Assembly (NCBI RefSeq): GCF_003999875.1
Contig: NZ_RQVJ01000007.1
Coordinates: 1-64,000, forward strand
Length of the DNA stretch: 64,000 bases
Direction of reading: 5' to 3'
From: Veillonella sp. 3310
GTDB lineage: Bacteria > Bacillota > Negativicutes > Veillonellales > Veillonellaceae
This document shows, piece by piece, positions 4,779 to 59,943 of the stretch. Position numbers and translations under genes: made by a program. Within the stretch, counting starts at the first letter, position 1; the number at the start of each line of letters is the position of its first letter. The notes under the pieces were generated by a model, which saw only the letters and a program-made list of their open reading frames with translations, was not told the origin of the DNA and ran no database searches.

Positions 4779-5033
4779 CAAAAAAAGACCCTCTCCCACA
4801 CAAGGGACGAAGATCTTCGCGGTTCCACCCTAGTTAGTCCCTATTCATAGGACTCACTCTTACGGACGATAACGGGTCCATACGGATTCAATTACAAGCC
4901 TAGCCTTCACTGAACCAGTTTGAAGGTGGTAACGTCTAAGTCTACACTAGATACTCACAGCCAAGGTATCTTTCTCTGAAAGTATAGATGGTTAGGGTCA
5001 TGTCCTTCGCATCACTGTTGCTTATATAATAAT
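4779..5033 (-). promoter_or_regulatory. T-box riboswitch in the thrS leader
   Basis: Minus-strand AGGGTGGAACCGCG (4831-4818) is the canonical T-box sequence that pairs with the tRNA acceptor end. It is followed by CGAAGATCTTCG and then a terminator stem with TTTTTTT at 4786-4780. An upstream arm carries a GTTACCACC segment near 4933-4925, where ACC is a threonine codon and the likely specifier. Known T-box logic is that uncharged tRNA-Thr stabilises the antiterminator, allowing thrS transcription. The specifier assignment is by eye and not folded. Confidence 0.9.
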
Positions 5034-30027: not shown

Positions 30028-30618
30028 TTATTTTCCTTTGTATTCTTGGACGGAAGGGTTATGATCTTTCATAGCTTGCTCTAGCCCAAAGATGACCATT
30101 TCGTTCATATATGTACGCAATTCATCATTGTGCACTTTCTCTGCATGACGCGCCAAAATACCTAAGAACTCTTCCTTGTAAGCATCTACTTCATTGGCTG
30201 ATACATAACGATGACTATTTAAATAGTTTTGATAATCTGCGTATAAGCTATTTAACACTTTTCTTCCATAGCTATCTTTTTTCCAACGATGGCTTTCAAT
30301 GTAAAAGTTTTTCCGCACATTCATATAATACAATGCATTAATGACGTCCAATTGCCCTGCAGAGATAACTTGATGCGTTTGCAATTCATATAATTGTTTA
30401 CTATGATCTTGCCCATAGTTAGCAAAGGTATCCACCACTTGCTTTACTTCCCAATTGGGACTCTCCACTGTAATCTTAGCTTGTATTTCTGAAATAACTT
30501 GTAAGCCTTCTTGCTCTGGTAACATTAACGGATCTTGTGCCGCATACGCCGTTTGACCTAAGGCTATCACACCAATAATAGCAGCGCCTAGTATCCAATG
30601 TTTACTTTGTGTTTTCAT
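30028..30618 (-). CDS. Exported protein of unknown function
   Basis: This 196-residue protein has a signal peptide (hydrophobic 8-22, cleavage after AYA near 26). The mature part is mostly helical and rich in Tyr, His and charged residues, with YYMNVRKNFYIESHRW in the middle and no cysteine. It is not a lipoprotein. I do not recognise the family. It has a good AAAGGAG site and a tight terminator. It is divergent from the SOD-like gene, with which it shares a 209-base upstream region containing a Fur-box-like sequence. Confidence 0.75.
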   Translation of the reverse strand: MKTQSKHWILGAAIIGVIALGQTAYAAQDPLMLPEQEGLQVISEIQAKITVESPNWEVKQVVDTFANYGQDHSKQLYELQTHQVISAGQLDVINALYYMNVRKNFYIESHRWKKDSYGRKVLNSLYADYQNYLNSHRYVSANEVDAYKEEFLGILARHAEKVHNDELRTYMNEMVIFGLEQAMKDHNPSVQEYKGK

Positions 30619-30744: not shown

Positions 30745-30773
30745 TTGACTTTTAATTCCCTATCTATTACCAT
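30745..30773 (+). promoter_or_regulatory. Promoter for the SOD-like gene
   Basis: TTGACT (30745-30750), 17-base spacer, TACCAT (30768-30773). Predicted start near 30780, just before the Fur-box-like sequence. Confidence 0.45.
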
Positions 30774-30785
30774 AGAGTTAACTGT

Positions 30786-30804
30786 GATAATATATATCAT
30801 TATC
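30786..30804. promoter_or_regulatory. Fur-box-like operator
   Basis: GATAATATATATCATTATC matches the 19-base Fur consensus GATAATGATAATCATTATC at 15 of 19 positions, with both outer hexamers intact. It overlaps or follows the predicted start of the SOD-like gene, a repressor position. Control by Fur is inference. Confidence 0.6.
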
Positions 30805-30827
30805 AAGTCTTTGCAACGGAGGTGTCC

Positions 30828-31460
30828 ATGAAATATTTTGAATTAGAACCACTGCCTTATTCTGACCGCGCCTTAGAGCCAATCATCGACAGAGAAATAC
30901 TCACGTCTTTGTATACTAATGTATACAGCCATGCCATATCTCAACTTAATGAACTAGTAGAAGAATTTACGGACCTTCGTTTCGGCCATATTGATTGTCT
31001 ACTAGGTGGTCTAAGCCATGTACCACAAGAAATTCGTGAAGACATTCAGATTTATGGTGGTACCTATAAGAATCTAACCTTATTTTTGCACACCTTGACA
31101 AGCCCGAATACAAGTACTATCGACGGACCAGTCAAAGATGCTATCAATCGATGCTTTGGTTCCTTGGAAACATTCCAAAAGAAGTTTACTGACGAGGCTC
31201 TCGCTCATATTGGTAATGGATGGACTTGGCTTGTCATCAACCCAGATAATACCCTTTCCATTACTTCCACCAAAGAACAAGATAATCCAATTATGGATAT
31301 GCAAACTGCAATATTAGGTATCAATCTATGGGAGTATATGTATTCCCATTCCAGCCGTGAAGAATATATTAACAACTTCTTCACCATTGTGAACTGGAAG
31401 ATTGTAAATCATATCTATGAAGAAACATTAAAAAATCCAAATCGCTTTGGACATGAATAA
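30828..31460 (+). CDS. Superoxide-dismutase-fold protein lacking all metal ligands
   Basis: This 210-residue protein aligns along its length with Fe/Mn superoxide dismutases (LPYSDRALEP at the start, CFGSLETFQKKFTDEA, IGNGWTWLVINPD, then VNWKIVNHIYEE). All four metal ligands are replaced. Relative to E. coli MnSOD, His26 is Leu28, His81 is Leu83, Asp167 is Asn166 and His171 is Tyr170. The second-sphere HHxKHH segment is also gone (YTNVYS). It is therefore unlikely to bind Fe/Mn in the usual way or to dismutate superoxide. The ATG at 30828 follows GGAGGTG. A Fur-like box lies upstream and a bidirectional terminator downstream. Confidence 0.85.
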   Translation: MKYFELEPLPYSDRALEPIIDREILTSLYTNVYSHAISQLNELVEEFTDLRFGHIDCLLGGLSHVPQEIREDIQIYGGTYKNLTLFLHTLTSPNTSTIDGPVKDAINRCFGSLETFQKKFTDEALAHIGNGWTWLVINPDNTLSITSTKEQDNPIMDMQTAILGINLWEYMYSHSSREEYINNFFTIVNWKIVNHIYEETLKNPNRFGHE

Positions 31461-31506: not shown

Positions 31507-32226
31507 CTATTCTTCGGGTACCGTGCCCACATGAACTGCTACAATGCCACCTGTAAGTTTAAAATACTTAGCATCTTGTAGTCCCACATCTTTAAAAATT
31601 TGAAGAACACCTTCTTGCCCTACATAACGGCGCAAGGATTCTGGGAGCCACGCATAGGATGATTGATCACGACTCAATTTACCCAACACAGGCAAAATCT
31701 TTTCAAAATATAAATAATAGGCTTGTTTAAATCCAAACATAGTTGGCTTTGCTAATTCCAAAGTAACCACTTTGCCACCTGGTTTAACAACACGCTTCAT
31801 TTCTCGAATCGTTTGTTCAATGCTTGGCACATTGCGCAAGGCAAAACCAGATACAGCTCCATCAAAAGAATTGCTTTCATAAGGTAAATCCATCGCATCC
31901 CCTTGGGTTAAGGTCACACGATCTGTATACCCTTCTTTCTCTAACCGATTCTGTCCAACTGCAAGCATCTCAGGACTAAAGTCAAGTCCCTCTACATGTA
32001 AGGACGGAATTTCTTGTAATGCAGTTTTTGTTAACATACAGGTACCACATGCAATATCAACCAATCGCATACCTTCTGTCAATTCTAATTGCTCGATAGC
32101 AAATCTACGCCACCGCGCATCTTGGTTAAAGCTCAATAAGGTATTCATCATATCGTAATGTTTCGCAATATGAGAAAATACATCTTGCACATAGGCTTTT
32201 TTATCTTCATGTGTTTTAAATTCCAC
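31507..32226 (-). CDS. menG: Demethylmenaquinone methyltransferase
   Basis: This 239-residue UbiE/MenG-type SAM methyltransferase performs the last step of menaquinone synthesis. Motifs are RLVDIACGTCMLT (SAM loop), VSGFALRNV and RVVKPGGKVVTLELAKP. I chose a GTG start at 32226 because GGAGG lies 7 bases upstream; the frame extends 29 codons further without a ribosome site. A menaquinone pool fits the hydrogenase with cytochrome b encoded further right. Confidence 0.92.
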   Translation of the reverse strand: MEFKTHEDKKAYVQDVFSHIAKHYDMMNTLLSFNQDARWRRFAIEQLELTEGMRLVDIACGTCMLTKTALQEIPSLHVEGLDFSPEMLAVGQNRLEKEGYTDRVTLTQGDAMDLPYESNSFDGAVSGFALRNVPSIEQTIREMKRVVKPGGKVVTLELAKPTMFGFKQAYYLYFEKILPVLGKLSRDQSSYAWLPESLRRYVGQEGVLQIFKDVGLQDAKYFKLTGGIVAVHVGTVPEE

Positions 32227-32306
32227 AATATACCTCCAGTTAATTATATCGCTATTCATTATACACGAATGGCTAAGGATATTCCATAATTTGTGATTTT
32301 TTTCTC

Positions 32307-59560: not shown

Positions 59561-59583
59561 AAACCGCTCCGAAGAGCGGTTTT
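59561..59583 (-). terminator. Terminator after rnpB
   Basis: AAACCGCTC-ttcg-GAGCGGTTT on the minus strand followed by TGTTATTG, right after the RNase P RNA 3' end. Confidence 0.8.
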
Positions 59584-59587
59584 GAGC

Positions 59588-59943
59588 AAGCAATCAATAA
59601 GCCGAGTTCTGTCCTGCTTTCGCAGTGGCGATTATCTTTCTAGGCGCATAGTTGCCTATACGCTCAAGCGGCACAACCCGAAAGGTAGGCGGGCAACCCT
59701 TAACCCTTTCCTATTCGGCCTTGCTCCGGATGGGGTTTACCGAGCATACATGTTACCATGTATCTGGTGCGCTCTTACCGCGACCGTTCCACCCTTACCA
59801 CCCGAAGGTGGCGGTTTACTTTTCTGTGGCACTATTCCCTATGGTCACCCACGCCGGCCGTTAGCCGGCATCCTGCCCTATGGAGCTCGGACTTTCCTCA
59901 AGTCAAGTAGACTTGCAATCGCCTTTCATACTTACTGTTTAAG
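59588..59943 (-). ncRNA. rnpB: RNase P RNA, class A
   Basis: The minus strand has the universal core GAGGAAAGTCCGAGCTCC (about 59902-59885) near the 5' end and ACAGAACTCGGCTTAT near the 3' end. P2 is GGCGATT/AATCGCC, P1 is CAGTAAG/CTTATTG, P3 is CAAGTC/GACTTG and the conserved AGTGCCACAGAAA follows. This ribozyme removes 5' leaders from pre-tRNAs. It has its own promoter (59942-59970) and terminator. Ends are set by P1 pairing and could shift by a few bases. Confidence 0.95.

Follow-up and report, generated by a model that had tools for sequence, protein, structure and literature searches.

What becomes of a superoxide dismutase (SOD) that has lost its metal site? A functional Fe/Mn SOD (SodFM) holds its metal with three histidines and one aspartate, and a survey of 3,011 genomes describes these four ligands as universally conserved (PMC10172142). 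The stretch of Veillonella sp. 3310 DNA analyzed here (64,000 nucleotides, referred to as the window) encodes a SOD-like protein in which an earlier note, made from the sequence alone, had read all four ligands as replaced and had proposed retention in a non-enzymatic role rather than decay. The features of the locus, with two ordinary RNA elements found elsewhere in the window, are as follows.

4800–5021, minus strand: T-box leader, ordinary
30028–30618, minus strand: 196-amino-acid protein with no family assigned, the divergent neighbor in six of six species
30745–30773, plus strand: predicted sigma-70 promoter as read from the sequence, TTGACT (30745–30750), 17 bp, TACCAT (30768–30773)
30785–30805, plus strand: Fur-type operator, TGATAATATATATCATTATCA
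30818–30822, plus strand: ribosome-binding site GGAGG, conserved in orthologues
30828–31460, plus strand: SodFM-fold protein of 210 amino acids without metal ligands, ATG start codon
31470–31507, no strand assigned: terminator hairpin common to the convergent SOD-like and ubiE/menG genes
31507–32229, minus strand: ubiE/menG demethylmenaquinone methyltransferase, a fixed neighbor in six of six species
59582–59935, minus strand: RNase P RNA, ordinary

The protein belongs to the SodFM fold family, with both Pfam profiles scoring above their curated thresholds (Sod_Fe_N, 29.5 bits with a cut-off of 27; Sod_Fe_C, 97.3 bits with a cut-off of 20.9) and phmmer aligning almost its entire length to solved MnSODs (E ~5e-38). 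In the phmmer register, with Geobacillus MnSOD (6pro) as reference and E. coli MnSOD numbering for the ligands, positions 26, 81, 167 and 171 correspond to Leu28, Leu83, Asn166 and Tyr170, in agreement with the note. The HHxKHH gateway, which the note had as lost, is here LYTNVY. Gateway residues His30 and Tyr34 are Val and Ala, the bridging Glu170-His171 pair is Glu-Tyr, and Tyr174 is deleted; His30, His31, Tyr34 and Tyr174 are gone from the outer shell, with Trp132, Trp134, Gln151, Glu169 and Tyr172 retained. The alignment to SOD, described previously as free of gaps, is near full length but lacks three residues after Tyr172 (in the YLKYQNRR loop that includes the gateway Tyr174) and has further one-residue gaps near residues 90–97 and 140 relative to MnSOD. 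Because motifs in common with 6pro flank each ligand position (LPY..ALEP-ID, GG-YKN-TLF, FGS-F--F, G-GW-WLV, ILG-N-WE--Y and EYI--F--VNW), the register is fixed on either side of every ligand, and a shifted register with His or Asp at the metal site is ruled out, the same loss being present in all four close copies. These substitutions point to a loss of activity and to a bacterial SodFM pseudoenzyme.

Structure prediction agrees with the assignment. The best AlphaFold2 model from a five-sequence input has a pLDDT of 82.9 (range across five models, 56.6 to 82.9) and a pTM of 0.83, although AlphaFold2 may force a known fold onto the protein from sequence similarity. This model – predicted, not a solved structure – has the full SOD fold and superimposes on 6pro with Z 28 and an rmsd of 1.5 over 199 residues; MnSODs are matched at full length, and the Foldseek and VIA match lists are occupied by true SODs. 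The SOD fold is therefore predicted to persist without metal, and Leu28 and Leu83 may be packed into the vacated site.

The loss is not confined to one strain. The gene is present in five of the six species of the genus that we examined, at the same locus and between the same two neighbors, with close orthologues in Veillonella sp. 3891 (96% identity), VA139 (85%) and VA137 (84%). At the four ligand positions the five copies read LLNY, LLNY, LVNY, LVNY and QYNH, the last of these being G132, the most divergent; the aspartate is Asn and the first two histidines are replaced in all five, and at least three ligands are lost in every genus member carrying the gene. Strain-specific decay, the outcome that the orthologue survey might have revealed, is ruled out because five species have the same ligand loss. 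The G132 copy is 60% identical and keeps one ligand (His171, which is also dimer-bridging) together with Tyr34, Glu170 and Tyr174, so that it seems to represent a less advanced stage; it looks like a visible intermediate in which three ligands have been lost and the dimer-interface residues kept. In the sixth species, G124, the gene is cleanly absent, with the two neighbors 143 bp apart and their shared terminator kept.

Full-length SodFM copies in the remainder of the family have the intact HHDH set. The five metal-free copies form a single clade (100/99), sister to the ligand-intact SODs of a neighboring genus (100/99); the stem branches are long, at 0.66 and 0.60 changes per column. Across the class, with truncated and broken copies excluded, the last three ligands are present in every other SodFM, and the first is a histidine at the position or one column away, apart from one copy with no aligned residue there. 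One divergent group of SODs, from other families in the class, seemed to lack the first histidine but was rejected as a further case, as a histidine lies one column off and the remaining three ligands are in place. This group (L128–L151; LxxHFxLYxGYV around the shifted histidine) also has a different glutamine region and is possibly a separate subfamily. Within the sister genus, the sod of G140 (L055) clusters with SODs from other families of the order, which suggests replacement by horizontal transfer.

Is the gene held by selection? Codon models give an omega of 0.185 when the four close copies are taken and 0.129 with all five, and a model with omega = 1 is rejected for the former set (lnL −1353.0 versus −1385.8, 2ΔlnL ~66), so that the dN/dS check proposed in the earlier note indicates purifying selection. 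The youngest pairs also fall under the neutral expectation (p 0.015 and 7.5e-10), and the five frames are intact across a saturated synonymous distance; in a neutral simulation at d = 0.5 about 0.05% of ORFs stay stop-free. Constraint is nonetheless weak compared with canonical SODs, for which omega is 0.045 and 0.017 in two groups, making that of the metal-free SODs ~3–10 times higher, and also compared with the two flanking genes (0.046 and 0.019). Pairwise Nei-Gojobori ratios follow the same pattern, at 0.10–0.29 among the four close copies versus mostly 0.02–0.05 (maximum 0.07) among sister-genus canonical SODs. With omega below 1 yet raised against both comparisons, the gene is held by selection, though loosely, and the weaker constraint together with the loss in one species suggests that its role is dispensable or weak.

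The distribution of constraint along the protein has also changed. Between G000 and G132 the active-site helix (residues 24–47) is 21% identical versus 60% overall (scan p 0.004), whereas canonical SODs of different genera are 71–75% identical in this helix; it is the least conserved part of the metal-free copies and among the best conserved in canonical SODs, which supports a shift of constraint away from the active site. His54, His64, His127 and His209 are invariant across all five copies, and Trp132, Trp134, Tyr172 and Gln151 are kept in the four close ones. A scan for a newly conserved surface or patch in the metal-free copies gave no significant window (best p 0.41).

The operator is better conserved than the rest of the intergenic sequence. 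All five copies have TTGACT, 17 bp and TAC-AT followed just downstream by TGATAATATATATCATTATCA, with TTGACTTTT and a TTAC-AT block conserved at the promoter; 19 of 21 operator columns are identical in the five species versus 102 of 191 other intergenic columns (p 0.0006). When up to two mismatches are allowed, TGATAATATATATCATTATCA matches at just one other place in the genome, ahead of an exbB/exbD operon that has a TonB-like gene after it. Looser Fur-type sites lie upstream of a second exbB-like gene, a TonB-dependent receptor, a haem-type substrate-binding protein (a lipoprotein) and catalase, but this pattern has 30 matches against 18 in the control, so that single weak sites are not reliable. 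The SOD-like gene thus has, at the level of sequence, a Fur-type operator at its promoter in common with iron-uptake genes. The genome encodes two FUR-family regulators, and the operator is predicted to be bound by Fur, or else by the second FUR-family protein; under Fur control the protein would be made when iron is scarce. The E. coli sodA gene is Fur-regulated (PMC3951346), and the metal-free gene resembles it in having a Fur-type promoter site. Since most canonical sister-genus sods also have a Fur-like site, AATGATAATTCATATCAA, the regulation of the metal-free gene is probably inherited. The canonical sod genes of the sister genus (L046–L054) have a conserved, perfect inverted repeat of 14 bp, GATGCA-GG-TGCATC, in their upstream regions, and no copy of it was seen ahead of the metal-free gene. 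A palindrome, GGATAATAATTATCC, upstream of a catalase gene (L165) is a possible Fur or PerR site.

Other defenses against reactive oxygen are encoded throughout the group. All 28 genomes of the family, the six genus members among them, encode superoxide reductase (desulfoferrodoxin); rubrerythrin is encoded in six of six genus members, and a catalase in the genome of the window. With both superoxide reductase and rubrerythrin available to each of the six, dismutation is probably dispensable in the genus. No second SodFM matched in the genome of the window and no Cu/Zn SOD was found in the genus, and a heterodimer with a second SOD of either of these two kinds was accordingly rejected.

The best reading of these observations, and one we consider rather probable, is that a SodFM pseudoenzyme has been retained, with Fur control predicted, in a non-catalytic role, most likely that of a metal-free scaffold or binding protein. 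The fuller version – a clade-wide pseudoenzyme, with an intermediate still visible in G132, that now acts as a non-catalytic protein in the iron-starvation response – is put forward tentatively, at a little below even chances. The metal site of an ancestral Veillonella SOD would have been lost at the base of the genus, with superoxide reductase, rubrerythrin and catalase presumably making dismutation dispensable. The fold would be kept and the empty cavity refilled by side chains that are either hydrophobic or polar (Leu/Leu/Asn/Tyr or Gln/Tyr/Asn/His). The gene stays under its Fur-type operator, with expression predicted under iron scarcity, and the protein would then serve as a metal-free binder or scaffold. 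Ligand loss, the predicted fold, purifying selection and operator conservation are the directly supported part of this reading. Retention is better supported by omega below 1, the conserved operator and the genus-wide distribution than by the intact frame, and loss of the metal site, retention across species and the exclusion of simple decay uphold that part of the earlier proposal; the binding, scaffold or sensing roles that it named are candidates. The raised omega, the clean loss in G124 and the lack of a significant newly conserved surface all count against a retained role.

The main rival, which we think unlikely without dismissing it, is a slow loss in which selection was relaxed once superoxide reductase covered the function, so that only harmless folding is constrained and the gene is disappearing. 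The raised omega, the absence from G124 and the catalytic loss throughout the clade all fit this, as does the sister genus, in which SOD is often lost or broken: three species have no SOD match, one sod has a stop at codon 34 and is otherwise intact (G178; L082, G178:C22), and another has an internal deletion of approximately residues 32–89 (G050; L081, G050:C1). Genuine decay there takes the form of stops and deletions, however, whereas the five Veillonella frames are intact despite saturated synonymous distance, the operator is conserved, and neutrality is rejected, recent branches included. Another catalytic or metal-binding activity, in the old cavity or on the surface, is very improbable: the outer-shell residues kept in four copies and the four invariant histidines could be taken to favor it, but the residues at the old site vary by species with no common ligand set, and conservation is lowest in the active-site helix. 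An artefact of register or sequencing, for which nothing was found in favor, is practically negligible given the conserved flanking motifs, the agreement of five separate assemblies and the orthologues, which already refute it.

The retained pseudoenzyme has partial parallels elsewhere. It shares with SodA/SodB the fold, both Pfam domains, the aromatic shell (GWTWLV) and descent, the metal-free clade being sister to a Veillonella SodFM clade, and differs in having none of the four ligands, the HHxKHH gateway, Tyr34 or Tyr174. The fungal mitoribosomal proteins mS42/mS43 (Rsm26/Mrp1) are SOD-fold proteins that have turned structural and lost catalysis. At the exit channel for mRNA they make up a heterodimer that stabilizes the rRNA 3′ end (PMC8998825, PMC9892005). 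The likeness is that of a SOD fold now non-catalytic, an analogy only, and those proteins are eukaryotic, paired and ribosomal; the open-access literature searched yielded nothing that treats mS42/mS43 as SOD homologues. Bacillus subtilis YojM, a Cu/Zn-SOD-like protein without copper ligands, is likewise a bacterial SOD homologue with ligands lost, but its fold is unrelated and its ligand loss only partial. The open-access literature that we searched gave no account of a bacterial SodFM without its ligands. Here a bacterial clade has lost ligands described as universally conserved and keeps the protein under selection, providing a natural test of the capacities of the SOD fold without metal, with ligand-intact sister-genus relatives and the partly converted G132 copy as comparison material. 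A sod annotation in genomes of this group should not be credited as SOD activity.

The divergent 196-amino-acid neighbor has no Pfam or NCBIfam match; it has an apparent signal peptide, and many species of the sister genus have several copies of it per genome.
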